Source: Verrucomicrobium sp. BvORR034
GTDB lineage: Bacteria > Verrucomicrobiota > Verrucomicrobiia > Verrucomicrobiales > Verrucomicrobiaceae
Assembly (NCBI RefSeq): GCF_000739635.1
Contig: NZ_BATQ01000121.1
Coordinates: 1-33,276 of the forward strand
DNA: 33,276 nucleotides
Reading direction: 5' to 3'
Shown here piece by piece: positions 2 to 32,160 of the stretch. The notes under the pieces were generated by a model. It had not been told where the DNA came from, ran no database searches, and was given only the letters and a program-made list of their open reading frames with translations. Both the position numbers and the translations under genes were made by a program. Numbering within the stretch: the stretch's first letter is position 1; every line of letters starts with the position of its first letter.

Positions 2-2497
2 GCCAATGCCCTGCTGACCGTGGATGTCGCCACCCTGGCAGACGCCGTCGTGGACACCACCCCAACCGGCAAGAACCTGCAGCTCACTGGCACGGGCAAT
101 GTCACCGCCCAGACGAGTGAGACGCTCAACACTCTTCGGATTGCTGGAAACAACAACATCACGCTGGCCGCAGGCGCCACCCTGGAAGTCCAGAGCATCC
201 TCAAGGCCGGCGGCAACGCCTCCGAGATCACGGGCGGCACAGGTCTCGGGCTGGAAAGCGGTGATGACCGGGACTTCATCATCCGCACCGACCTGGCTAC
301 GGACACGCTCACGATTTCCAGCGTGCTGCTGGGCAGCATCGAGAACGGACTCACCAAGTCAGGTCTCGGCACCCTCATCCTGGCCGCCTCCAACCAGTAC
401 GCAGGCATCACGAACCTGCTGGACGGCACCCTCAAGCTTGCCCACGTCAACGGACTGGGGCTCAACTCCTTCAACGACCGCACTCGGGTCCACTCGACCG
501 CTCTTCTCGACATCGGTGAACTCACCATCGCAGAGATCATCGAGCTCTACAACGGCGGCGCGGTTGGCACCTCCACCGGCACCCTCGGCACGCTCACGGG
601 CGAAATCATCCTGAACGGCAGCGGCAGTCTTCAACCCGCCGCCTCGACCATCCTGCACGTGAGCAGCATCATCAGCGGCAGCGGCAGCCTCGCCCACACC
701 GGTGCTGGCCAGACCATCCTCACTTCAGCCAACACTTTCACTGGCGATGTGAACGTGAACAACGGCACACTGGTGGTCACCGGCAATCAGAACCTCGGCT
801 TGGGGAACAAGACCATCAACGTGGCCAATGCGGCCCGCCCCGCCCTGGCGCTGGACGGATCAGCAGGGAATCTCACCCTGGGCGTGAACTACTCCTGGAA
901 CCTCAGCAGTGATGGCAGCACCGCCACCCTCGGCGCCCTCATCAACGTGGCTGGTACCAACACCATCAATGGTGCCATTCATCTCACCAACGGCGGGGGC
1001 GGCCAGGCCAAGATCTACGCCCAGGCAGGCAAACTCATCATCAACGGCACCATCGACTCCAACACCGCCACCTCAGGTCGCACTCTGCTGCTGGATGGCC
1101 CTGCCGAAGGCGAACTCAACGGTGTCATCAGCGATACCAGCCAGGTGGTGAGCATCACCAAGAGCGGCACCGGCATCTGGACGGTCAATGGAAACAACAC
1201 CTACACCGGCGCGGTGTCCGTGACGGACGGCACCCTGAAGGTGAGCAATATTTCAGACATCGGAACCGCACAGGCGCTCGGATCCGGCGCCGCAGCCATC
1301 ACCCTGGGCTCTGCCACCACGACCGGCACACTGGACTACACCGGTCTCGTCGCCGCCACGCTGGCGCGCAACATCACCGTCTCCGGTGTCGGCGGCGGAG
1401 TGGTGCGGAACTCCAGCGGACAACTGCTCACCTTGAGCGGAGTCCTCACGCACAACGCGCGCCCGCTCACCTTCTCCCAGGGGGCATTCCTCATCACGGG
1501 CAACATCACCGGCAACAATGCCAACTCGCACACCATCATTTCCAATGCCCAGGTGACCTTCACCAACGCCACCAACAACTACAACGGCAACACCGTCGTC
1601 CAGGGAGGCGGCACTTTGAAGAACGGAGCCTCTGAGGTGCTCCCCAATGGAACCACGGTGGTGCTGGGCGACGCCACCGGCAACAGCAACGGCACCTATG
1701 ATCTCAACGGGTACAATGAAACCGTTACAGGGCTCACCCATGCAGGCACCGGGCAGGCAGTCGTGACCAACAGTGGTGCGACCGGAACGGGCACGCTGAC
1801 GGTCACCGGCACCAGCAACTACAACGGGGCCATCGTGGACGGGGCCACGGCCCAAGTGGCGCTCATCAAGAGCACCGCGGGCGTCTTCACACTTTCCGGG
1901 GCAAACACCTACACCGGCACCACCCAGGTGACTGGGGGCACCTTGGCCATCGCCGTTACCGGCTCCCTCACCAGCCAGGTCAGTGTCTCCGCAGGTGCCA
2001 CACTGGATCTGCTGGGAACGATCAACGGCCATGGCGTTGATTCCTCAGGCAATCTCGTCATCGGCAGTGGCGGCACCACCGGCGTGGCCACCATTCACGG
2101 GGCCCTTACCACCACCGCCACCAGCGGTCTCTACTTTGACATCAAAGGTGCCGACCGCGGCGCGACGACTGCAGGGTATGATGCCATCAACGGGCTAACC
2201 GGGCTCACACTCAGCGGTACCATCAACATTGCGCTCGATGCCGGGTTCACTCCTACGGAGAGCAGCACGTTCAATCTCATCGACTGGACCCTGATCAACG
2301 CCTCCTTCATCAACAACGGATACACGTTCAACTTCACCGGAGTTGACGTTTCCACCCTCGGACTGGAGTGGCGCACTGATCTCTTCAGCACCACGGGATC
2401 CATCTACCTGGCCAGTGCCGTCCCAGAGCCCGGCCGCATCGTGATGCTGGCGCTCGGTCTGGCAGCCCTGTTACTTAGAAGAAGACGCCGGGCGTAG
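2..2497 (+). CDS. Autotransporter-associated beta-strand repeat protein with PEP-CTERM sorting tail (5' truncated)
   Basis: The reading frame is open from base 2, so the gene starts left of the window; the GTG at 20 is internal. About 830 residues are visible. They are rich in Gly, Thr, Asn and Ser and carry diverged copies of a roughly 30-residue motif of the type 'KSGxGxxxLxGxNTYTGxTxVxxGTL' (numbering from base 20: residues 111-140, 224-253, 379-408 and 615-644, with weaker copies between). This is the PATR-type autotransporter-associated repeat, which folds as a beta-helix. The last 25 residues are a PEP-CTERM signal: VPEP at 801-804, a hydrophobic helix, then an RRRRR cluster. Family knowledge says such proteins are exported, processed by an exosortase and placed on the surface or in the matrix. 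No beta-barrel domain follows, so this is not a classical type V autotransporter. The substrate or role is unknown. Confidence is high for the class. Confidence 0.9.
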   Translation, partial: ANALLTVDVATLADAVVDTTPTGKNLQLTGTGNVTAQTSETLNTLRIAGNNNITLAAGATLEVQSILKAGGNASEITGGTGLGLESGDDRDFIIRTDLATDTLTISSVLLGSIENGLTKSGLGTLILAASNQYAGITNLLDGTLKLAHVNGLGLNSFNDRTRVHSTALLDIGELTIAEIIELYNGGAVGTSTGTLGTLTGEIILNGSGSLQPAASTILHVSSIISGSGSLAHTGAGQTILTSANTFTGDVNVNNGTLVVTGNQNLGLGNKTINVANAARPALALDGSAGNLTLGVNYSWNLSSDGSTATLGALINVAGTNTINGAIHLTNGGGGQAKIYAQAGKLIINGTIDSNTATSGRTLLLDGPAEGELNGVISDTSQVVSITKSGTGIWTVNGNNTYTGAVSVTDGTLKVSNISDIGTAQALGSGAAAITLGSATTTGTLDYTGLVAATLARNITVSGVGGGVVRNSSGQLLTLSGVLTHNARPLTFSQGAFLITGNITGNNANSHTIISNAQVTFTNATNNYNGNTVVQGGGTLKNGASEVLPNGTTVVLGDATGNSNGTYDLNGYNETVTGLTHAGTGQAVVTNSGATGTGTLTVTGTSNYNGAIVDGATAQVALIKSTAGVFTLSGANTYTGTTQVTGGTLAIAVTGSLTSQVSVSAGATLDLLGTINGHGVDSSGNLVIGSGGTTGVATIHGALTTTATSGLYFDIKGADRGATTAGYDAINGLTGLTLSGTINIALDAGFTPTESSTFNLIDWTLINASFINNGYTFNFTGVDVSTLGLEWRTDLFSTTGSIYLASAVPEPGRIVMLALGLAALLLRRRRRA

Positions 2498-2656: not shown

Positions 2657-2735
2657 CCATCAAAGATTCAGTGCCGGGCAGCAGGTGTTGCTCCGCGAAC
2701 CGTGTTCCAAACCGAACCCCCTACCCCAGACGGAC

Positions 2736-3029
2736 ATGAAACTCCCCTCCCCTCGCCCCCTTCTTGCCATTTTCGCAGCGGCCACCTTGGCGCTGGCCGC
2801 CAGCTTGACGCCCTCCACGGCGGCAGCACGTGAAACTCACAGTCAGCGCCACAGTGAGTCCTCTCATGAAGTTCAGACCGTCGGCCATCGCCATGGTCAT
2901 GGGCACAGCCATCATCATCATCGCCGCCCGCGTCTGGAGCACCGCTTCTGCGGCAGCCATCGCCATCACCACACGCACATCTGGTACGGCAGACATCACC
3001 GGGTGTACAAATGCTGGGGACATCGCTAA
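2736..3029 (+). CDS. Small exported histidine-rich protein, putative metal-binding
   Basis: The 97-residue protein starts at ATG 2736, where a clear signal peptide begins: Lys near the start, a hydrophobic Leu/Ala core, then a Ser-Thr-Ala-Ala-Ala cleavage region around residue 30. A GTG at 2685 would only add 17 charged residues in front of the signal. The mature part is about 66 residues and contains 20 histidines, two cysteines and many arginines, with HGHGHSHHHH and HRHHHTH runs. Such compositions usually bind Ni, Zn, Cu or Co; the metal here is a guess. The gene stands alone on the plus strand between a terminator and a MITE. The TAA stop (3027-3029) is also the target duplication of the MITE, so transcription must read into the element. 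No family is recognised beyond the composition. Confidence 0.7.
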   Translation: MKLPSPRPLLAIFAAATLALAASLTPSTAAARETHSQRHSESSHEVQTVGHRHGHGHSHHHHRRPRLEHRFCGSHRHHHTHIWYGRHHRVYKCWGHR

Positions 3030-3250
3030 GAACCTGTTTGGATAAAAACGCTGAGTGTGTTGCGAGGCATTTTGAGTCTGGACAAGGCGCGAAGAGGGCG
3101 TAAATCGAAATTCACAACCGATGAGCAACGCAGTCCAGGCTCAAAAGGCCCGCAACCCGGAGGGGGCAGTTCTCAGGCTCGGCGAAGCCGCTTTTATCTC
3201 ATTCCCTTAGTTGAACCTGCCACACCCGGATGTTTTATCCAAACAGGTTC
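3030..3250. mobile_element. MITE copy 1 (221 bp, TIRs, 3-bp TSD TAA)
   Basis: The ends are perfect inverted repeats, GAACCTGTTTGGATAAAA at 3030 and its complement ending at 3250. The element is flanked by TAA on both sides (3027-3029 and 3251-3253). Inside, TTTTGAGTCTGGAC (3070-3083) pairs with GTCCAGGCTCAAAA (3133-3146) with one mismatch, giving a second nested stem. No transposase is encoded, and the short open frame across its right end has no credible protein. It is about 96% identical by eye (8 substitutions, 2 one-base indels) to the copy at 5278-5500. TNA-type 3-bp duplications are known for parts of the IS5 family, so an IS5-like transposase in trans is a reasonable but unproven source. 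Confidence 0.88.
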
Positions 3251-3425
3251 TAAGCTCCCCGCACCTCAAGGCTGGAACGCGCCGTGCCAGACTTGAGGCG
3301 TAATCTTGACCAGTTGCAAAGTTCTCAAATTCATATTCCCGCACGAAAGCGGCCTATTTTCATTGCTTCCGGCAACTGATCACTCCGGCATTGTAGTACG
3401 CCCGATAGGCATCCCTGCTCCGATT

Positions 3426-4178
3426 ATGGGCGTCATGCCTCCTTCTGTTTTGCCCGCTCCCTCTTCTCAGAAGTCTGCTTTGACCACCCGAGTCCTGGTG
3501 GTGGATGATCATCCCGGCTTCCGCCTGGGCGTGGTCGAGATGTTACACGATATCGAAGGATTCGAGGTGTGCGGGGAGGCCGGAGATTCTGCCTCCGCCA
3601 TGGATTCTTTTCGACACTTGGAGCCCGATCTCGTCGTCATGGATATCAGCCTGCCTGGCCGGGATGGTATAGAAGTAACCAAGATGATGCTGGCAGAACG
3701 ACCGCACACCACCGTGCTGGTTCTCACCATGCATGATGAACTATTCTATGGTCTGCGCGCCCTCAAGGCAGGGGCCTACGGATACTTGCGCAAGGACGAC
3801 ACCCTCACCCAGTTGGCCGACGCCATTCGTCTTACCGCGAGCCGGACCCACTATGTGAGCCCCAAGCTTCTCGCTCATCTGGTCAAGAAGCTCGCTCACA
3901 CCCCCACCGTGGAGGTGGAAGGCAAACCGGCCATCCAAGGGCTCTCGGACCGGGAGATGGAGGTGTTTCACTGGTTGGCCAAAGGCCTGGGGACAAGGCA
4001 GATCGCGACCCAGCTTGGACTCAGCATCAAGACCATCGAGACCCACCGGGCCCATATCAAGAGCAAGCTCCGCATGCCCACTGCAGAGTCAATTGTCAAA
4101 CTGGCCCGCGAGTGGCACGAACTGGACGAACAGTCCTGTGCCCTTGAGCGAAACGGGAACGGCCAGGAAGCGGGCTGA
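3426..4178 (+). CDS. NarL/FixJ-family response regulator (orphan, first of three)
   Basis: This is a two-domain response regulator of about 250 residues. The N-terminal receiver domain shows the acidic pair in VVDDHP, the phospho-acceptor Asp in VVMDISLPGRDG, the switch Thr in VLTMH and the Lys in LRKDD. The C-terminal LuxR-type HTH reads LSDREMEVFHWLAKGLGTRQIA and continues through KTIETHRAHIKSKL, where the recognition helix lies. The receiver begins about 20 residues after ATG 3426, which fits family length; ATG 3435 is an equal alternative, while an upstream in-frame start at 3306 would add an unlikely 40-residue leader. No histidine kinase is adjacent. The upstream MITE ends 175 bp before the start and could affect expression. 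It is very similar to the regulator at 9478, especially in the HTH, which suggests a duplication and overlapping DNA targets. Confidence 0.93.
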   Translation: MGVMPPSVLPAPSSQKSALTTRVLVVDDHPGFRLGVVEMLHDIEGFEVCGEAGDSASAMDSFRHLEPDLVVMDISLPGRDGIEVTKMMLAERPHTTVLVLTMHDELFYGLRALKAGAYGYLRKDDTLTQLADAIRLTASRTHYVSPKLLAHLVKKLAHTPTVEVEGKPAIQGLSDREMEVFHWLAKGLGTRQIATQLGLSIKTIETHRAHIKSKLRMPTAESIVKLAREWHELDEQSCALERNGNGQEAG

Positions 4179-4199
4179 GCGCCCAGCCCCTCGAACAAG

Positions 4200-4553
4200 T
4201 TACTCTTGTGAAGGAGGAGTTACTGGTGGCGGCACCTGTGGGGGCACTGGCGCACTTGGCACAGGAGGCGCGCTCGGTGCAGGGGTCGGCGTAGGCGGGG
4301 TGCTTGGAGCAGGCGCTGGAGGCGCACCGGGCACGGGTGCAGGAGCGCCCTCCGGAGTGGCACTGCCGCCCTGCGGAGGTATCGGTGTGGCCGGACGTGT
4401 CGGATCGGATCCGGTATCGCGTGGTGTGTAATAGTCCCGCGTGGGCGGTCCTTCCTGCCTCGGAGCATGCTCCTTGTTGCGGTCACATGCCGCCAAAGCG
4501 AGCATAAGGAAACAACCAGAACAGACCAGGAGAAAGGGGCGGAGGGCGTTCAT
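4200..4553 (-). CDS. Proline-rich lipoprotein, unknown function
   Basis: The 117-residue protein starts with a lipoprotein signal peptide: Arg at position 5, a hydrophobic stretch, then lipobox LAAC with Cys23. The residue after the cysteine is Asp, which in enterobacteria is a Lol-avoidance signal favouring the inner membrane; whether that rule holds in this phylum is unknown. The rest is low complexity, dominated by Pro, Ala, Thr and Gly in repeats like APxPxAPP, with no recognisable domain. Such regions act as extended spacers or peptidoglycan-spanning stalks. The gene is convergent with the response regulator to its left (21 bp between stops) and divergent from the DUF2892-like gene to its right. 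The anticodon strand is also open across this region, but only this strand gives a credible signal peptide. Confidence 0.72.
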   Translation of the reverse strand: MNALRPFLLVCSGCFLMLALAACDRNKEHAPRQEGPPTRDYYTPRDTGSDPTRPATPIPPQGGSATPEGAPAPVPGAPPAPAPSTPPTPTPAPSAPPVPSAPVPPQVPPPVTPPSQE

Positions 4554-4745
4554 GAGAAGACTGGGAGCTTTTCATAAGATCGCTCTCGTGCCGCCGCACG
4601 CAGGTAGGGCGAATCCCTGATTCGGCCATCAGGCAGCAGGCCTGCGCTGTTCCCGAAGCATTGGGACCGCCGCAACAACGGGCTGGCGTCGATTCAGCCC
4701 AAAACAAAACACAAACACCATACAGGCTCATAATCTGCCCTGCCT

Positions 4746-5222
4746 ATGAACACGACTGCTACTACCCCATTGCATCGCACATTGCCCGCCACCGACGAGC
4801 GAGTTCCCGCCAACACGGCCGACAACGTCAACCTGGACATTCGCCGCAAGATGGAGCAGCGACTGGCTCAACTGGCCGCGAGCGACAAGGATGCAATCAC
4901 ACGACGACTCCTGGAACTGGAGCACGAATGGGATATTGAACGGGTATTGGAAGCCAATGCCGCCACTGTTGTACTGGCCTCCGCCACTCTGGCCGTCATA
5001 GAAGACCGCCGCTGGGGTTGGCTTACGGTGGCAGTGGGGGCCTTCCTGCTGCAACACGCGGTCCAAGGATGGTGCCCACCCCTTCCAGTGTTGCGTCGAC
5101 TGGGCGTCCGCACTGCGAGAGAGATCAACGAAGAGCGCCTCGCCCTGCGCATCCTGCGCGGAGATTTTGCCGTGCCTGTGTCCACATCCGCCGAGGCGTT
5201 GGTACTGGCTCATGAGCATTGA
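4746..5222 (+). CDS. DUF2892/YgaP-like membrane protein
   Basis: This 158-residue protein has a charged, helical N-terminal half (residues about 25-65) followed by two hydrophobic segments (about 70-85 and 90-108). After these comes the signature QHAVQGWCPPLPVLRRLGVRT, which resembles the C-terminal membrane domain of YgaP and other DUF2892 proteins, where a Cys-Pro pair follows the second helix. In YgaP this domain anchors a rhodanese; here there is no rhodanese, only a soluble helical region, so the role is unknown. Sulfur or phage-shock related roles have been proposed for relatives, but nothing here proves one. The gene is monocistronic by its surroundings: a divergent lipoprotein lies upstream and a MITE inserted 55 bp after its stop. 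Confidence 0.72.
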   Translation: MNTTATTPLHRTLPATDERVPANTADNVNLDIRRKMEQRLAQLAASDKDAITRRLLELEHEWDIERVLEANAATVVLASATLAVIEDRRWGWLTVAVGAFLLQHAVQGWCPPLPVLRRLGVRTAREINEERLALRILRGDFAVPVSTSAEALVLAHEH

Positions 5223-5277
5223 ACGGGCAAGAGAATTTGACGTATCCTCTCATTCCAGGCAGGTCCTGGCTGCGTTA

Positions 5278-5500
5278 GAACCTGTTTGGATAAAAACGCT
5301 GGGTGTGTTGCGAGGCATTTTGAGTCTGGACAAGGCGCGAAGAGGGCGTGAATCGAGATTCACAACCGATGAGCAACGCCGTCCAGGCTCAAAAGGACCG
5401 CAACCCCGGAGGGGGCAGTTCTCAGGCTCGGCGAAGCCGCTTTTATCTCATTCCCTCAATTGAACCTGCCACACCCAGATGTTTTTATCCAAACAGGTTC
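5278..5500. mobile_element. MITE copy 2 (223 bp, TIRs, 3-bp TSD TTA)
   Basis: Same element and same orientation as the copy at 3030-3250. The terminal inverted repeats are GAACCTGTTTGGATAAAAAC and its complement, with flanking TTA duplications at 5275-5277 and 5501-5503. The internal nested stem is conserved. The TSD differs from that of copy 1 (TTA against TAA), so the two are independent insertions rather than one segmental duplication. It separates the DUF2892-like gene from the YciF-like gene. Confidence 0.88.
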
Positions 5501-5597
5501 TTAGGGAAAACAGAGTTTGATCGATCATGCCCCGAACTCGCCATCAGGGTCGCATCCTCCACCTCCGCCCTCCGGCATCCCCGCGATGCCACGGTGT

Positions 5598-6101
5598 ATG
5601 AAACTCGAAACACTCCACGACGCCTATGTGCATGAATTGAAGGACCTGCTCAGCGCGGAACGCCAGCTGACCAAGGCCCTGCCAAAGATGGCCAAAGCCA
5701 GTTCCAATGAAGAACTGGCTGCGGGATTCCAAGAACACCTGAGCCAGACGGAGGAACACGTAAACCGCCTGGAGAAAATCCTCTCTGATATGGGCGAGAG
5801 CTCCACCCGGGTGGAGAAGTGCAAGGCCATGGAAGGGCTCATCGCGGAAGGCTCGGACCTCATCAGCAAGGGTGGCACACCCGAGGTGGTGGATGCCTTG
5901 CTCATCGGTGCGGCCCAGAGGGTGGAGCACTACGAGATCGCCGCCTACGGCACCGCGCGAACGTTCGCTGAAATCCTGGGTGAGTCAGCCGCGGCGACCG
6001 TGCTGCAAACGACCTTGGATGAGGAAGGTGCCACGGACAAGAAGCTCACAAAACTGGCCATGAACACCGTCAATGTCGAAGCTCAGGCAGCGGCCCCTTG
6101 A
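5598..6101 (+). CDS. YciF-like ferritin-fold protein (DUF892)
   Basis: From ATG 5598 the protein is 167 residues, very close to the 166 residues of E. coli YciF, and begins at the conserved 'ETLHDAYVHELKDLLSAERQLTKALPKM' region. ATG 5586 and an earlier in-frame ATG at 5517 would only add a proline-rich leader that looks non-coding. The family folds as a ferritin-like four-helix bundle. The candidate carboxylate and histidine ligands are visible in HELKDLLSAE, in the EEHVNRLEK segment and in RVEHYEIAAYG. YciF relatives are stress-induced and may bind a di-metal centre; the reaction is not known. The MITE lies just upstream (ends 5500), so it may sit in or near the promoter. A weak terminator follows. 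Confidence 0.88.
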   Translation: MKLETLHDAYVHELKDLLSAERQLTKALPKMAKASSNEELAAGFQEHLSQTEEHVNRLEKILSDMGESSTRVEKCKAMEGLIAEGSDLISKGGTPEVVDALLIGAAQRVEHYEIAAYGTARTFAEILGESAAATVLQTTLDEEGATDKKLTKLAMNTVNVEAQAAAP

Positions 6102-24435: not shown

Positions 24436-27400
24436 TCAGGAGATCGCAGAAGTCGTACCAGTGGAACCGGCACGCGGCGTAACATCATCGGACGAATCAT
24501 CCCCGAGCAGACGATCGAGATCCTCATCGCTGAGGGACTCAATATCCACCTCTTCCACCGCAGCGGGTGTTTCGACCACCGCAGGCGCGGCGGACGCTGC
24601 CGGGGCAGCCCCCGACTTGCCTCCCACACGCTCTGAGATGAGGGTCACGATCTGACCAATGGTTCGAGCCCGCATGAGGCTGGTCGGTGGCAGGGCCACG
24701 CCAATCGCTGCTTCCAGCGAGTTTTCGATTTCCACACCCATGAGGGAATCCAGGCCCAGGTCGGTGAGCGGCTGGTCGTTGCGCAGGCTGTCCGGTTTCA
24801 CACGGAGCACCCCACCCACCACATCCCGCACGGCGGCGCCAATGACGCCTTCACGCTCGTCTGCAGAGGCGGACTCGATGCGCAAACGCCAGTCGCTGGT
24901 GCCACCACCGGCTTCCTGATCGTCCATGCCCGAGGCAAAGATGCGCTCCAGCAGCGGGTTCTCCTGCATACCGCGGAAGAACTGACGCCATTTGTTCCAG
25001 TCCACCCGGATGGCCACGCCCTGGGCAGTGCCAGTGGCAAGGAAGCCTTCGAGCAGAGTGACCACCTCGCCAGGTGAAAGAGCCGCCGTCCCCTGACGGG
25101 CCAGGAACTCCGCCACCTTCTCGTTGCGGGCCACATAACCTTCACCACCCAGCACACCCCAGTTCACCGTCAGCGCGGGCAAGCCGAGCGCACGGCGGTG
25201 GTGGGCCAGAGAGTCAAGGAACGCATTAGCAGCCGCGTAGTTGGCCTGAGCCGGGTTGCCAAACACGCTGGAAACCGAGGAGAACATCAGGAAGCAGTCC
25301 AGATCCATTCCGGTGGTCTGCTCATGGAGCAACCAACCACCGTAGGATTTGGGTGTGAGCACCGACTTCATACGGTCGCGGTTGAGCACCCCGAGCGGGG
25401 CGTCATCAATGACCATCGCCAGATGCAGCACCCCCTTGAGCGGCACACTGAGCTGGCCGATCTCAGTAAAGAGACGGGCCACATCTTCCTTCGAGCCCAC
25501 ATCAGCAGACACGGTCAGCACTTCCACGCCTTTGGCTTCCAGGCCTTGGACAAACGCTTCCGCTCCTGGGGTCTTCAAGCCGCTGCGGCTGCTCATCACC
25601 AGGTGACGGGCTCCAGCCTCCACCAGCCAGTTGGCCAGCACTCGGCCAAAGCCGCCGAAGGCACCGGTGATCAGGTAAGCACCATCCGGGCGAACCTCAA
25701 AGGCCGGCACCGGAGCCTCCCCGCGCCGCGAGACGAACTCGGGGGCGAAGGAAACGACCACTTTGCCAATGTGCTTGCCCTGCGCCATCTGGCGGAAGGC
25801 AGCATCCACACGGCATGCCGGGAAGGCGCGGAAGGGCAGCGGGTGCAATTCACCCTGCTCCACACGCTCGGTCACATCGGCCAGAAGCTGGCGCGCCAGC
25901 CTGCCATCCCCACTGAACACCGCGTCCATCGCCACTACGTGGAAGGAGGCGTTGTTGCGCAGCGGCCACAGCGGGATGCGGGAGTTCTGGTAGATGTCGC
26001 GTTTGCCGATTTCAATGAAGCGGCCAAATTCTGAGAGACAGGCCAGACCCATCGGGATGGCCTCGGAGGCCAGTGCGTTGAGCACCACATCCACCCCGCG
26101 ACGATCCGTAAGGGCCATGACAGCCTCCACGAAGTCGCCACGACGGGAGTCAATGACGTGCTTCACACCCATGTTCAGCAGCAGGGCACGCTTGGTGGCA
26201 CTGCCTGCGCTGGCGATGACGTCCACACCCAGGTGACGGGCGATCTGGATGGCCGCCATACCCACCCCGCCGGCACCGGCGTGGACAAGGATGGTTTCAC
26301 CCGCACGCATGCGGGCCACATTCACCAGCGAGTGCCAGGAGGTCATGAAGACCACTGGCAGCGTCGCGGCTTCCTCAAAGCTCAATGCGGGCGGCATGAC
26401 GCGCACGTCACAACCGCGAGCGAGCGTCTGGGTGGCCATGCCAAACACGGCCAGACCAAAGGCTCGATCACCCACTTGCACGTGATCCACATTCGCCCCC
26501 ACCGCAGTGATGATCCCCGCCACTTCGTCACCGAAGATCCGGGCATCAGGAGCTTCACCAGGATACAACGCCAGAGCCTTGAGCACGTCGCGGAAGTTCA
26601 TCCCCGCGGCCATGACATCAATCACCACGTCATCCGGACCACAGGCTGGCTGCTCAAACGGCGCGAACGCCAGAGCATCCAAGTGACCACGATCCTTCGA
26701 CTCCAGACGGAGCGGAACTGATGCATCCAGCCACTGTTCCTGCACGGAGCGTCCACGCGTCAGGCGCATGGCATAGCGGGCTTCCCCACGGAAGGCCACT
26801 TCGCGTTCCGCATCGCGGTTCCCCAGTTCACCCAGCAGCAAGTCCACATCCCCTTCCGAGGCCACCGGGGGCAGATCCACGCAGCGGCAGGAAATGCTCG
26901 GCTGCTCATTGTGAATGACACGGGCAATCCCGATGGCAGGAGACTGTGCCACACTCGTGACTGGGATCTCCTCACCCACCGACTGGGCACCACGGGTGAT
27001 CAGGTCCATTCGGACCTTGGAAGCCGGGCAGATCGAATCTTGCGCCTGGGCCAGATGCAACAGGGCATCCGTACCACCGAGCACGTCATCAGCCTCCGCA
27101 GGCGCGGCAGGCTCATCGAGCGTCCAGAGATACACAAAGCGTTCCGGCGCAGCTTCCGCCACGACCTCCGTCACCAACTGAGTCCAGTCTTCCGGAGCTT
27201 CCGCCCGCACGGTGAACTGGTCCTGGCCATCAGAGGCATACGCACCACCACGTGTCACCACCCGGCAACGGGCACCGGCTTCACGCAGACGGGACACAAG
27301 CTGGTCACCCAGTCCGCCCGCATCAGCAAAGACGAGCCAGGAGGTCTCGAGGTCCACCCCTTCACCACCCTCTTCGGCCGTTGCTTCCTCGATCTCAGCA

Positions 27401-30400
27401 GGAGCAACCTCGGTCGTCCAAGCCTTGCGGCCCAACACGCCGATCTGCCCTTCTCCGCCACGCGGGCCGGTAAGGCCGGGCAGTGAGGCGGTTTCGTCGA
27501 ACCCAACTTCCTTGAGCACCTTCTCCCACTGCTCCCGCTCCATGAGCGGCTGCACCGGGCGGAGCTCGCGGTCCGTCAGGCTCCACCAGCCGCTCGTGAG
27601 ACCGAAGACGGTCTCCGTCCAAAGCTGGGGAGAGGCGGTGTCCATGAACACCAGGCTTCCGCCGGGCGCGAGGAGATCACGCAGGTGGCCCAGGGCCTCG
27701 CGCACATCGCCCACGGCGTGCACGCAGTTCGTGCCAATGACAAAGTCATAGGAACCCAGCTCGTAGTCCTGTTCCGCAGGGGAACGCTCCAGGTCATAGG
27801 CCCGGTACTCCACCTCAGGGAACCCGGCCAGCTTCTGCATGGCACCGGAGAAGAACGAGGCTGAAATATCCGTGAAGGTGTAGCTGTGCAGGCCACGCTC
27901 AAGCTGCGGCAGCAGGTAAGAAGCGAGACCGCCTGTGCCCGCACCGATCTCAAGAATGCGCAGACCGCGTCCTTCCGGCAGTGCCTTGGCCGCCTCCTGC
28001 ACTGTGGCCGCGATGGCCGCCAGCCAGTGGCAGGTGAAAAGGCCGTCGCCGTAGAACTGATCCAGAAGGTCTGCACCACTGCCGCCAAAGAGCACTTGTA
28101 CCGCCTCTTTCTCACCACGGAGAATAGGCGTCAGTTCTGCGCAGTTTGCCACGCAGAGCAGGGCCTCCGGCAGATGGCCGGGATGCTGCTCCACGTACTC
28201 ACGCAGGGTGTCGTCCGCCGAAGCGGCCACCCGGTCAAATTCCGCAGTGGGCACATAGCCACCGTCCTTGGCATCCACCAGGCCGCGCAGCACCAGACCA
28301 GTCATAAGCTGGCCAAACACCGGCTGCAGCGCCGGGGCCACGCCCAGAGCCTCAGCGGTGATGAGGTCACCCGCACCCATCTTGCGCAGTCCCTGCGTCA
28401 GGTGGGCGGCTGCGAGCGTGTCACCTGCCGCCAGAGCGGCTTCCAGCTTGGCACGACCGCGTGCGTTCACCACCTCATCGAGCGCCGCACCAGCGGCCTC
28501 TTTCAGGCGGGACAGCGGCAGCGGCTCAAGAGTGGCCGGTGTACCAGCGAGCGGCTTGCGCTCCCAGCCCACGCTGTAAATCAGATCCCGGATGCCTCCC
28601 GGACTGCCGGAACGGCGCACCCCGGCCACAGCGATGGCACGGAAGCCGTCTACCAGCACGCATGGATTGCCTGCCTCATCATAGATGCCGAGGCGGCCCT
28701 GGAGATACTCGTCGTTAAATCCTTGAACCCCTGCCTCAACCTTGCAGGACGCGCCTGGCGAACGCAGGAAAAGGATGCGGGCAAAACGCACCGGCAGCTT
28801 GAGCCGGGCTTTGCGTCCTTCCACGGTGCGGGCACCTGCGGAGAACACGTGCAGCGCACCATCCATGAGCACCGGATGCAACTGATACTCCCCTGCTCGG
28901 ACCGCGGAGGCCTCGGTCAATGCGACACGCCCGGATGAGCGGCCACCAGCGGCAGCGAGCTCGCGCACTCCGCGGAACTCTTCACCGTAGCGCAGGCCCT
29001 TGTCGGCCATGTGGTCATAGAAGTGGGTAAGATCCACCTTCTCCAGTCCCTGCACTTCTTGAGAGGCGGACTCCCAATCGGTACCGGCAAACGTCGATTC
29101 CGTGCGCTCACTGCGCATCGTGCCCACCACATGGACCGACCACGAGGCAGCGTTCTCAAACTTGCTCTGGATCGTGAAGGTGCGCTCGTTGCTGTCGTAA
29201 GTCACCTCCAGCTGAATGCTGGACGGATTCTCCGGCAGGATGAGCGGCTTGCGGATCTCAAAATCCTCCACGGCAAACGGGCGGCCTTCAAAGAGCTGCA
29301 CGCCGGCTTCCAGCACGAGTTCTACAAAGCCTGCGGCAGGGAAGATGACGTGGCTCTCCACCTTGTGATCCTTCAAGAAGGCCATGTGGCGGGAGTCCAG
29401 ACGGGCCGACCAGGTCGGGGTGGCCCGAGGCAGACGGGTATCAAGCAGACCGCGTCCACCCTTGCCAAGACGGCCTTCCTTCCAGTCGGGTGACTCGCTC
29501 CACCAGCGGCTGCGATCCCACGCATAGGCTGGCAGGGCAAGCTGGCGGCGGGACGGCGTGATGGCAGAGAAGTCCGCCTCCACCGCATTCCGGTGCAAAT
29601 TGGTCACCGTCTCAAGCATGGTGTCATGCTCACGCTCACGGCGAATCGAGGAAAGAACAGGTGCCTTGACTCCACGTGCCGTGAGGCACTCCTGGATGGA
29701 GTGCGCCAGCGCCGGGTGGGCGCTGATTTCCAGCCAGACATCCACACCATGGTCGGCGAGGGCGTTCACTGCCGGGGCAAAGAGCACTGGCTGGCGGATG
29801 CCACGACCCCAATGGGCGGCATCACAGGATTCACCGGAGCAGCGCTCACCCGTGACCGTGCTGAAGAACGGCACGGTCTCAGCCAGAGGCTTCATTTCCG
29901 AGATGGCTGCCACCAGGGCATCTGCCGCTGGTTGCATGAGCGCATGGTGGAAGGGATGGTCCACCTTCACGAGGCGGGCAAAGACACCCTGGCCTTCAAG
30001 TTCAGACTGGATGGCTTCCAGAGATACGCGCGGACCCGCCATGGTCAGGGAGCGCGGGCCGTTGAAGGCCGCGATGCTCACCGTACGATCATGACGTGCG
30101 ATCACGGCGCGGGCTTCTTCTTCGGACAGACCCACTGCCAGCATGGTGCCTTCACCACGGGCGCAGTCTTCCATGAAACGAGCGCGCTGCACGATGATGC
30201 GGGCACCATCTTCAATGCTGAAGATGCCGGCCACACAGGCGGCGGCCACTTCACCTACGCTATGACCCACCACAGCGGCGGGATTCACACCCCAGGACTG
30301 CCACAGTGCCGCGAGCGACACCTGCATGGCGAAGATCGCCGGCTGCCCCACCTCGGTGCGAGCCACTTGGGAAGTTTCCTCGGTCCTCGCCAGCTCCTCC

Positions 30401-32160
30401 AGCAAGGAGAAGCGTGCCCAGGGCTTCATGGCCTCAGCACAACGCTCCATCGTGGCGCGGAACACCGGCTCATGCTTCATGAGTTCACGGCCCATGCCCC
30501 ACCACTGGGGTCCCTGGCCGCTCATCACAAAGCCCACCTTGGGGGCCTGCTCCGGACGCGGAGTGAAGGAGGCCTGCACCTTTGGCCCCGGAGATCCGGC
30601 AGCGTAGGCACGCAGCTCTTCGATCGCCTCTGGCATCGTCTGCGGCACCAGCGTCATGCGATACTGGTGATGATTGCGACGGGCACCCAGAGTGTAAGTC
30701 AGATCGGGCAGCAACGGAGTGCTGCCATTGGCGTTGGAGCGGGCTTCGAGCCAGTCAGCAACACGAGCCGCATTGCCACGCAACGCCTCTTCCGAACGGG
30801 CGGAAAGCACCAGCGGCCAGGAGCGGCCGTCCGCCATCACCGGACCGTCCGGCTGCGGACGGGCGGGAGCCTCGGACACGATCACGTGCGCGTTGGCACC
30901 CCCGAAACCGAAGGAGTTCACCCCAACCAAGCGCTCACCATCAATGGCGGGGAACGGCTCCAATGAGGTGGGAACACGAAGCTTCAGCCCGGGGAAGTCA
31001 ATGTGCGGGCTAGGCGTTTCAAAATGCAGGCTCGGCGGGATCTGATGATGCTTCAGCACCAGCAGAGCCTTCAGAAGCCCCGCCACACCGGCGGCGGTTT
31101 CAAGGTGGCCAAGGTTCGTCTTCACCGAGCCGATCGGCAGCGGATCATCCGAGGCACGTCCGGCGCAAAGGGCTTCCGCGAGGGCGGTGGCCTCAATAGG
31201 GTCCCCTACTGCGGTGCCTGTACCATGGGCTTCAACAAAACCGATCTTCGAGGGGTCAACACCCGCATCGCGGCAGGCATCGCGCACCAACCGGGCCTGG
31301 GCCTCAGGGCTGGGCAGGGAGATACCATTGGTGTGACCATCCTGGTTGATGGAAGTACCCACGACCACGCCATGGATGGGATCTCCATCGGCAATCGCCT
31401 TCGACAGAGGCTTCAGCAGGACCATGCCGGCCCCTTCCCCACGCACGAAGCCGTTGGCAGAGGCGTCGAACGCTTTGCAACGACCATCAGGTGACAACAT
31501 TGACGCTTGAGAGAAGCCAATGAACCCACCAGGGTTGATCATGATGGTCACGCCGCCCGCGAGGGCGACCTCACCACGACCGCTCCAGATGTGCTCACAC
31601 GCGGCATGCACCGCAGTGAGCGCGGAGGAGCACGCGGTGTCCATGGCCACACTTGGACCAGTCAGATTCAGACAGTAGGAAATGCGGTTGGCCGCGATGC
31701 TGTGGGCGCTGCCCGTGGCCGTGTGCGGGCTGATGCCCGAGGAATCATACGGAGAGGCCTGGATGATCTGGTAGTCGTTGTGGGAGATGCCCACATACAC
31801 AGCGAGATCGGTCCCCTTCTCGAAGTCCAGCACCAGGCCGGCATCTTCAATGGCCTCCCACGCAGTCTCCAGCAGCAGACGATGCTGCGGGTCCACAAAC
31901 GGGGCCTCACGAGGGGAGATACCGAAGAACTGGGGATCGAACTGCTCGAGTGATTCCACGAACCCACCTCGGCTGGCGATCGACTTGCCGAGAATCCCGG
32001 CCTCCGCATCGTAGTACCGCTCCAAATTCCACCTGTCTGCAGGCACTTGGCCAACGGCCTCACGACCCTCGGCAAGCAGCTTCCAGTAGGACTCCATGTC
32101 CGCAACCTTTCCAGGGAAGCGGCATCCGACACCAACGATGGCAATTCCTTCTTTATTCAT
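24436..32160 (-). CDS. Single-module type I polyketide synthase KS-AT-DH-cMT-ER-KR-ACP
   Basis: This 2574-residue protein is one complete reducing module. KS, residues 1-430: DTACSS Cys177, AHGTGT His312, NLGHLE His352. AT, about 540-840: GHSVGE Ser634, with HPFH at 735-738 in the substrate-specificity position. This resembles malonyl-type HxFH rather than methylmalonyl YASH. DH, about 900-1180: His932 in DHKVESHVIFP and Asp1100 in HPVLMDGALH; the usual HxxxG is HxxxS. C-methyltransferase, about 1360-1580: LEIGAGTGG 1403-1411. ER, about 1815-2140: HAGAGGVGMAA 1960-1970. KR, about 2150-2390: TGAFGGFG 2165-2172, IDD 2251-2253 (B-type-like), Tyr2308. ACP: GLDSLM with Ser2472. A 60-residue Ala-Pro-Glu-rich tail ends with DIESLSDEDLDRLL, which looks like a docking helix. 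No thioesterase is present. All reductive domains look intact, so a saturated, possibly C-methylated acyl unit is expected, perhaps iteratively. Confidence 0.96.
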   Translation of the reverse strand: MNKEGIAIVGVGCRFPGKVADMESYWKLLAEGREAVGQVPADRWNLERYYDAEAGILGKSIASRGGFVESLEQFDPQFFGISPREAPFVDPQHRLLLETAWEAIEDAGLVLDFEKGTDLAVYVGISHNDYQIIQASPYDSSGISPHTATGSAHSIAANRISYCLNLTGPSVAMDTACSSALTAVHAACEHIWSGRGEVALAGGVTIMINPGGFIGFSQASMLSPDGRCKAFDASANGFVRGEGAGMVLLKPLSKAIADGDPIHGVVVGTSINQDGHTNGISLPSPEAQARLVRDACRDAGVDPSKIGFVEAHGTGTAVGDPIEATALAEALCAGRASDDPLPIGSVKTNLGHLETAAGVAGLLKALLVLKHHQIPPSLHFETPSPHIDFPGLKLRVPTSLEPFPAIDGERLVGVNSFGFGGANAHVIVSEAPARPQPDGPVMADGRSWPLVLSARSEEALRGNAARVADWLEARSNANGSTPLLPDLTYTLGARRNHHQYRMTLVPQTMPEAIEELRAYAAGSPGPKVQASFTPRPEQAPKVGFVMSGQGPQWWGMGRELMKHEPVFRATMERCAEAMKPWARFSLLEELARTEETSQVARTEVGQPAIFAMQVSLAALWQSWGVNPAAVVGHSVGEVAAACVAGIFSIEDGARIIVQRARFMEDCARGEGTMLAVGLSEEEARAVIARHDRTVSIAAFNGPRSLTMAGPRVSLEAIQSELEGQGVFARLVKVDHPFHHALMQPAADALVAAISEMKPLAETVPFFSTVTGERCSGESCDAAHWGRGIRQPVLFAPAVNALADHGVDVWLEISAHPALAHSIQECLTARGVKAPVLSSIRREREHDTMLETVTNLHRNAVEADFSAITPSRRQLALPAYAWDRSRWWSESPDWKEGRLGKGGRGLLDTRLPRATPTWSARLDSRHMAFLKDHKVESHVIFPAAGFVELVLEAGVQLFEGRPFAVEDFEIRKPLILPENPSSIQLEVTYDSNERTFTIQSKFENAASWSVHVVGTMRSERTESTFAGTDWESASQEVQGLEKVDLTHFYDHMADKGLRYGEEFRGVRELAAAGGRSSGRVALTEASAVRAGEYQLHPVLMDGALHVFSAGARTVEGRKARLKLPVRFARILFLRSPGASCKVEAGVQGFNDEYLQGRLGIYDEAGNPCVLVDGFRAIAVAGVRRSGSPGGIRDLIYSVGWERKPLAGTPATLEPLPLSRLKEAAGAALDEVVNARGRAKLEAALAAGDTLAAAHLTQGLRKMGAGDLITAEALGVAPALQPVFGQLMTGLVLRGLVDAKDGGYVPTAEFDRVAASADDTLREYVEQHPGHLPEALLCVANCAELTPILRGEKEAVQVLFGGSGADLLDQFYGDGLFTCHWLAAIAATVQEAAKALPEGRGLRILEIGAGTGGLASYLLPQLERGLHSYTFTDISASFFSGAMQKLAGFPEVEYRAYDLERSPAEQDYELGSYDFVIGTNCVHAVGDVREALGHLRDLLAPGGSLVFMDTASPQLWTETVFGLTSGWWSLTDRELRPVQPLMEREQWEKVLKEVGFDETASLPGLTGPRGGEGQIGVLGRKAWTTEVAPAEIEEATAEEGGEGVDLETSWLVFADAGGLGDQLVSRLREAGARCRVVTRGGAYASDGQDQFTVRAEAPEDWTQLVTEVVAEAAPERFVYLWTLDEPAAPAEADDVLGGTDALLHLAQAQDSICPASKVRMDLITRGAQSVGEEIPVTSVAQSPAIGIARVIHNEQPSISCRCVDLPPVASEGDVDLLLGELGNRDAEREVAFRGEARYAMRLTRGRSVQEQWLDASVPLRLESKDRGHLDALAFAPFEQPACGPDDVVIDVMAAGMNFRDVLKALALYPGEAPDARIFGDEVAGIITAVGANVDHVQVGDRAFGLAVFGMATQTLARGCDVRVMPPALSFEEAATLPVVFMTSWHSLVNVARMRAGETILVHAGAGGVGMAAIQIARHLGVDVIASAGSATKRALLLNMGVKHVIDSRRGDFVEAVMALTDRRGVDVVLNALASEAIPMGLACLSEFGRFIEIGKRDIYQNSRIPLWPLRNNASFHVVAMDAVFSGDGRLARQLLADVTERVEQGELHPLPFRAFPACRVDAAFRQMAQGKHIGKVVVSFAPEFVSRRGEAPVPAFEVRPDGAYLITGAFGGFGRVLANWLVEAGARHLVMSSRSGLKTPGAEAFVQGLEAKGVEVLTVSADVGSKEDVARLFTEIGQLSVPLKGVLHLAMVIDDAPLGVLNRDRMKSVLTPKSYGGWLLHEQTTGMDLDCFLMFSSVSSVFGNPAQANYAAANAFLDSLAHHRRALGLPALTVNWGVLGGEGYVARNEKVAEFLARQGTAALSPGEVVTLLEGFLATGTAQGVAIRVDWNKWRQFFRGMQENPLLERIFASGMDDQEAGGGTSDWRLRIESASADEREGVIGAAVRDVVGGVLRVKPDSLRNDQPLTDLGLDSLMGVEIENSLEAAIGVALPPTSLMRARTIGQIVTLISERVGGKSGAAPAASAAPAVVETPAAVEEVDIESLSDEDLDRLLGDDSSDDVTPRAGSTGTTSAIS

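Follow-up and report, generated by a model that had tools for sequence, protein, structure and literature searches.

Miniature inverted-repeat transposable elements of Verrucomicrobium sp. BvORR034 carry a covarying, putatively structured core that appears within different ends in other bacterial phyla

Bacterial miniature inverted-repeat transposable elements (MITEs) are usually treated as dead fragments of insertion sequences (IS), each genome having its own set. We have analysed two copies of such an element in a 33,276-nucleotide stretch of Verrucomicrobium sp. BvORR034 DNA (contig NZ_BATQ01000121.1, positions 1 to 33,276, referred to here as the window) and compare them with the described systems which they most resemble. 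The element is a MITE, being short, devoid of a transposase and multi-copy with terminal inverted repeats and target duplications, and it forms a new family within an established class of elements. The window family shares the TNA duplication, the CTNAG target and the lack of a transposase with IS5-family MITEs, TNA within CTNAG being a mark of the IS5 groups, but departs from them in two respects: the loci examined in the genus yielded no IS sharing its ends, and its conserved core is absent from the scanned IS loci. In REPINs, two inverted hairpin units form one element, and the two-core forms described below are similar to REPINs and to REP sequences with RAYT in having paired inverted units. 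Unlike REP sequences, which are 20-40 bp in length (PMC3733652), the core units are ∼95 nt and are enclosed by transposon ends flanked by target duplications. The Chunjie MITE of Geobacter uraniireducens, 235 bp with 37 further copies (PMC10969869), is a bacterial MITE of similar size and copy number, a likeness drawn from its published description. Narunsky et al. (2024) counted 250 mobile or repeat candidates, and MRSC-65-2 from the same source (PMC11109978) is likewise multi-copy, structured and covarying, occurs in diverse phyla and was judged a mobile repeat. It differs in forming a single long stem with repeated UYCCGG, a motif found in 4 of 78 cores when either strand is counted, and never twice.

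Combined, our results favour, with a probability of roughly 0.58, a MITE mobilised in trans by a CTNAG-preferring, TNA-duplicating transposase and carrying a core which is selected for its fold and probably acts as RNA. Judged from sequence comparison, this core appears in MITEs of at least five bacterial phyla, two of which are represented by one genome each, and the ends of these MITEs differ and are often unrelated. Covariation and the presence of the same core within other ends suggest that selection retains the core because of its fold while the ends follow the available transposase. The core comprises the inner 95 nt of each copy (forward strand, 3062-3156 in copy 1 and 5310-5404 in copy 2, scoring 96.4 and 101.9 bits, respectively, with model R2) and forms a folded module that is conserved and covaries strongly. 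In copy 1, the arms of the P1 stem lie at 3070-3083 and 3133-3146, followed inwards by a conserved loop with AAGGC on its 5' side (3084-3088) and AACGCA on its 3' side (3127-3132), the two strands of the tandem G.A motif, 3090-3097 facing 3118-3125, and the apical P2 hairpin (3100-3115), which contains one A.C mismatch; all are on the forward strand. The corresponding loop sides in copy 2, also on the forward strand, are AAGGC at 5332-5336 and AACGCC at 5375-5380. The sequence-only reading had described a second, inner stem, TTTTGAGTCTGGAC/GTCCAGGCTCAAAA, with one mismatch. The stem is present, its exception being a single T.G wobble, whereas what had been overlooked is that it belongs to a conserved structured module common to several phyla. 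As single-stranded DNA, copy 1 folds with a z-score of -7.15, equal stability occurring in 0 of 200 shuffles.

Conservation of the core became apparent outside the genus. BLAST of the element against 142 relatives returned, beyond the genus, matches to its inner part only; the five genomes concerned belong to the same order, and the ends there differ. A pattern search gave 47 core-like places, reduced to 16 representatives, 15 of which were aligned, L128 (L and G numbers denote loci and genomes, respectively) being left out as degenerate and of other length. These 15 cores, from eight genomes, align nearly gap-free, and their RNAalifold consensus contains the same 29 pairs as the pairing read from the sequence by hand. 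In this alignment 95.6% of cells pair, both sides have changed in 20 of the 29 pairs and the covariation score is 0.572, compared to 0.187 for shuffled and ≤0.152 for slid alignments. Of five measures, one was less clear, the number of further pair types, 34 versus 30.4, a value equalled by 39 of 500 shuffles. Scores rise to 0.813 versus 0.216 for 40 distinct sequences and to 0.916 versus 0.230 for 78 sequences, with double changes in 28 of the 29 pairs in the latter, both larger alignments being fitted to the model and thus biased towards it. Alignment A3 was built without L184 and L186, which are weak, and without L189, which is a near-duplicate; A4 was drawn from 64 chosen loci, weaker or near-duplicate loci being left out, among them L030, L070, L090, L174, L175, L178-L187, L189, L210 and L211.

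The P1 stem is closed by C-G, with C in 76 and G in all 78 of the 78 cores, and is followed in the consensus by the AAGGC / AACGCM loop, G-C, C-G, tandem G.A, a covarying pair, tandem G.A and the P2 hairpin. Of the 78 cores, 55, 54, 69 and 69 have G.A or A.G at the respective four positions, the first tandem G.A being replaced by ordinary pairs in some. In the paired columns, G.T and T.G together occur 142 times versus 26 for A.C and C.A, or 94 versus 24 when one mostly-G.T pair is removed. As the complementary strand would favour the reverse, it seems that a single strand of the core polarity is under selection, as RNA or as single-stranded DNA, and we infer that the asymmetric loop, rather than the wobble pairs, chiefly determines the strand. 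For the GA-rich loop, hammerhead-like and kink-turn motifs were considered from the sequence and rejected, the strand order fitting neither and no convincing Rfam match being found. Rfam 15 gave 0 gathering matches in the window, and at permissive thresholds the only contact with a core edge in 21 further loci was one match with E 4.9 (L069).

The core is distributed widely and unevenly. R1, a model built from Verrucomicrobiota, detects it at E≤0.001 in 28 of 387 Verrucomicrobiota genomes, that of the window included, and in 18 of 197 genera. At E≤1e-4, R2 detects it in 91 of 398 Pseudomonadota and 10 of 395 Bacteroidota genomes, one of the latter (G499) already known. The two phyla searched are those of a Piscirickettsiaceae genome and of Emticicia, taken as Pseudomonadota and Bacteroidota, respectively, and in these large searches scoring was limited to the 10 best candidates of each genome. 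An 18-nt match to the element end led to six genomes of other groups, and three of the six have cores at E≤0.01: Elusimicrobia with 23, Planctomycetota with 3 and Emticicia with 3. Zero cores were detected in the Fibrobacteria, Piscirickettsiaceae and archaeal genomes, one of each. In the three positive genomes, inspection by eye of 550 nt around the 18-nt end match revealed neither a core nor a second end. Elusimicrobiota and Planctomycetota are weakly grounded since each is represented by one metagenome bin. E. coli gave no match with one Pseudomonadota element as query. Plasmid queries, one without a match and two giving 3 and 4 records, led to Azotobacter chroococcum pAcX50f, Pseudomonas aeruginosa PA83 and Halomonas sp. 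PA16-9; an R2 core is present in all three plasmids and a second, facing core in two. The plasmid matches lie under no listed gene, in a gene table that is incomplete and lacks any genes for the Halomonas stretch. In the f26 family of genomes (L178, L171, L181) the core is found without clear transposon ends, near sequence which we take to resemble 5S ribosomal RNA, and L178 has two core copies in tandem, 253 bp apart.

The ends surrounding the core differ from locus to locus. Inverted repeats scoring ≥14 enclose 44 of 59 cores and 0 of 56 shuffled controls, the 59 being the 62 cores listed minus L221, L226 and L200, which have short flanks. These ends include GGGCCTGTTAACAC, GAACCTATCTCAG, TAGTGTAGTGCGTCTCAC, AGAGCGCGATGACG and ACACAGCACCATAA; a GRRNCTGTT start is common to many, some of which may thus have diverged from a single type, others being without likeness. 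Of 30 Pseudomonadota loci, 27 were scanned (L221, L226 and L229 being left out), and 12 of the 27 contain a second core (E≤0.01). It always faces the first, the two 3' ends being separated by 6-9 nt, or by 30 in L235. With two facing cores, either strand of the element therefore carries one sense core. The window elements have a single core each, a search with R2 for a second core giving just weak antisense matches (E 0.1 and 0.34) overlying the same core.

A likeness of the core loop to that of the Correia element of Neisseria prompted a comparison. Correia elements (CREE, nemis) are similar to the window MITE in having the core and mostly intergenic sites. The window element differs in its TNA duplication, that of Correia elements being TA, and in its ends, which are GAACCTGTTTGGATAAAA in the window copies in contrast to TATAGTGGATTAA in Correia elements. 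Correia elements are furthermore shorter, their P1 continues into the ends and the tandem G.A pairs are lost. The test set consisted of eight stretches of IMG/VR contigs with a Correia end, containing nine places, the contigs carrying no host name; the ends of these elements equal published Correia ends (PMC5039591). R2 detects five of the nine places at E≤0.0064. R3 detects five at E≤0.004, two of which are one sequence, with a further place at 0.02 and another, cut by the contig end, at 0.07; the short Correia form, at E 0.26, is no better than chance matches, which start from 0.2, and a fragment is missed. The best alignments land exactly on C-AAGGC, AACGCC-G and the P1 stem, and the 13-nt Correia end TATAGTGGATTAA occurs in none of the other loci examined, those used to train R2 and R3 included. 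By these alignments, Correia elements are predicted to carry a diverged version of the core. In one locus, L183, a Verrucomicrobiota core lies in ends CTTATAGTGTATTAAATTG, near the Correia end. When transcribed, Correia elements reportedly bind RNase III, which cleaves or protects them; long forms are reported to bind IHF, and the elements can create promoters at their ends (PMC2649163).

No published description of the core was found in a search outside of which most subscription literature lies. The shared core is new, with its priority uncertain, as similar mobile-repeat motifs are in print and the core may be among the other MRSC candidates, comparison having been with MRSC-65-2 alone and with the accessible portion of that source.

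The anatomy of the two copies corresponds closely to the sequence-only reading. Copy 1 occupies 3030-3250 (221 bp) and copy 2 5278-5500 (223 bp), and both have perfect outer inverted repeats as claimed, 18 nt in copy 1 (3030-3047, forward strand, and 3233-3250, reverse strand) and 20 nt in copy 2 (5278-5297 and 5481-5500, same orientations). Copy 1 is flanked by TAA (3027-3029 and 3251-3253), the left TAA doubling as stop codon of the open reading frame (ORF) at 2685-3029, and copy 2 by TTA (5275-5277 and 5501-5503). Between core and right repeat lies a variable right half on the forward strand, 3157-3232 in copy 1 and 5405-5480 in copy 2. Differences counted by eye at about 10 positions amount to 8 mismatches and 2 single-base indels in a global alignment, and, as stated, no transposase is encoded, 221 bp leaving no room for such a gene. 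The counterpart of 3027-3029 in the sister genome G002 is CGC TAG C, a CTAG-like target.

In its own genome (8.58 Mb in 200 contigs) the element is multi-copy, with 40 places detected using copy 1 as query. These derive from 53 pieces, 11 of which are one end matching the other end only, while two elements are split in two pieces each. The 18-nt end, with ≤2 mismatches, occurs 40 times forward and 38 times reverse, compared to 1 and 0 for the reversed control. Together, the places and end counts put the element far beyond chance. Thirty full copies were extracted, 29 of which could be judged for flanks as L011 has no left flank. An exact 3-bp duplication is present in 22 of the 29, every one TNA (TAA 9, TCA 7, TTA 4, TGA 2), the flanks being unequal in the other 7, and C before plus G after is found in 20 of the 29, most of the duplications lying within CTNAG. 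These values and the differing TAA and TTA of the window support the proposal that the two copies inserted independently. By crude gene calls, 0 of 30 copies interrupt a high-scoring ORF. Targeting of stop codons was also considered and rejected; a codon-score test was passed by 2 of 30 copies only and missed copy 1 despite its TAA being an ORF stop. Per-site variation among the copies is 1.09% in the loop plus P2, 0.8-1.3% in the ends, 5.95% in the right half and 1.89% over the whole 95-nt core. Three close copy pairs, 1.3-2.4 kb apart, are present (window 3030-5500; G000:C160:79919-82692; G000:C43:15916-17712), and such closely spaced pairs might move as a composite.

The same element end is found in records of Verrucomicrobium sp. 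BvORR106, and exact ends are equal in number, 9 and 9, in the BvORR106-named records and in the same-genus genome G002. Homologous intervals free of the element exist for copy 1 in G002 and G003 and for copy 2 in G002 (the copy 2 interval of G003 was set aside owing to other gene content), and both window insertions thus look lineage-specific, but the junctions have diverged too far to reveal a loss of precisely the element and one TNA.

An IS5-like source, as first suggested, agrees with the TNA duplication within CTNAG, whereas the IS with the same inverted repeats which this suggestion called for was not found among the loci examined in the own genome and the sister genomes G002 and G003. 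The own genome has 4 PF01609 and 2 PF13340 matches, these being the families searched (PF13340 in the own genome only). Comparison covered 29 transposase loci: 5 own, 21 of the 43 PF01609 matches in G003, and 3 of G002 at two places. Among the end-pattern matches in the own and sister genomes, no pair at an IS-like distance was seen by eye. G003, a single 8.22 Mb contig, has 43 PF01609 and 8 core matches, and the window genome 4 PF01609 and 34 core matches. In G111, of another genus in the same order, a PF01609 locus cut by the contig end has GAGACCGTTGAAAAACCCC beside TAA at its other side, and the MITE of that genome has GAGACTGTTGAAAAACCCC; over the first 14 nt this IS end differs by one mismatch from the end of that MITE (L274). 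G424 contains an IS, with a PF01609 transposase, which lies in CTAG right at the edge of a core-bearing MITE (L272:1321-1417 and beyond). Scanning 35 transposase loci (30 plus the five own) with R2 detected the core in L272 only, within that separate MITE beside the IS, while two viral loci in the same scan do carry cores; R3 on 23 transposase loci, 18 of them new, gave a best E of 0.42. As no scanned IS locus holds the core, it does not appear to derive from an IS. An IS5-type driver of the window family is plausible.

Several observations weigh against a fold-selected core, probably acting as RNA, in a MITE mobilised in trans. The first 14 nt of the end are at ≥3 mismatches in all 29 transposase loci, 3 in 7 and 4 in 20. 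No clear ends were detected for 15 of the 59 cores, L165, L171 and L173 among them, and all four G.A pairs occur together in 39 of 78 cores, half missing at least one. In the own genome the P1 3' arm varies by 5.0%, close to the right half, mostly from one site. The 18 of 30 copies classifiable by crude gene calls display no clear orientation preference to their neighbours, 7 being convergent, 9 in the same direction and 2 divergent. RNase III cleavage of Correia transcripts is reported (PMC2649163) to be governed by end symmetry and not by the core. Finally, G.T pairs are tolerated in single-stranded DNA also, so that the wobble bias fits this form too.

This last point belongs to the chief rival of an RNA role, which we consider unlikely: the core would act as single-stranded DNA, folding during replication, when a host replication protein or the transposase complex would recognise it, and aiding excision, copying or target choice. 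A fold conserved in DNA transposons that need no transcription is consistent with such a role, as are the facing second cores of the Pseudomonadota loci, which place one core on each strand. Conversely, the same core lies within different ends, hence presumably used by different transposases, and is absent from the scanned IS loci; in addition, no cut-and-paste DDE transposase is known to need an internal hairpin. We give little credence to a plain IS5-derived MITE, an internal-deletion product whose interior is leftover sequence with useless palindromes. The ends, the TNA duplications, the lack of a transposase and the G111 IS end one mismatch from the MITE of that genome are as this explanation predicts, but for the core it is already contradicted by covariation, by absence from the scanned IS loci and by occurrence in MITEs of other phyla having other ends.

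Less credible again is a core that is a hitchhiker, recently spread between phyla by horizontal transfer, its likeness reflecting short time rather than function. The patchy distribution, the multiple copies and the few plasmids (Azotobacter, Halomonas, Pseudomonas) point in this direction, while the wide sequence divergence with pairs kept through double changes, the differing ends and the little sign of phage carriage (one phage query returned no record, and a strict and a looser pattern matched 0 and 1 viral contigs) point away from it. The least probable explanation is that the element acts on neighbouring genes mainly by terminating transcription or by donating a promoter. Stable intergenic hairpins and the promoters that Correia ends can create (PMC2649163) would suit this function; a pattern scan of 2950-5600 detected no such site inside either copy, with totals at shuffle level, and the T-run is located on the 5' side of P1.

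Under the preferred reading, a transposase acting in trans, most likely of the IS5 kind, would insert the element into CTNAG between genes, the target being observed and the enzyme predicted. The inserted element would be transcribed together with a neighbouring gene, and the core, as covariation supports, would fold into P1 closed by C-G, the AAGGC/AACGCM loop, tandem G.A and the apical hairpin. By analogy with Correia elements, the folded core may be bound or processed by the host RNA machinery, an action which could soften or tune the effect of the insertion. Ends would be swapped with the available transposase, and selection acting on the fold, in a single strand polarity, would maintain the core. 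Tentatively, we extend this to a single ancient structured family, likely RNA, that would be carried in at least five phyla since it makes insertions tolerable via a conserved host RNA-processing factor, its ends being exchanged as transposases change and Correia elements forming one known branch.

Elsewhere in the window, an 825-aa ORF at 20-2497 (forward strand) has four passenger-associated-transport (PATR) repeats, its product being perhaps autotransporter-like, and 24436-32160 (reverse strand) encodes a 2574-aa modular polyketide synthase with ketosynthase, acyltransferase, dehydratase, methyltransferase, zinc dehydrogenase, ketoreductase and carrier domains (Pfam).

If the core is indeed kept across phyla while the ends change, selection can act on the interior of a MITE, and the well-studied Correia elements would be linked to a large family. 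A direct experimental question would follow, namely which host factor reads the AAGGC/AACGCM loop. The shared core could also explain many unannotated intergenic hairpins.

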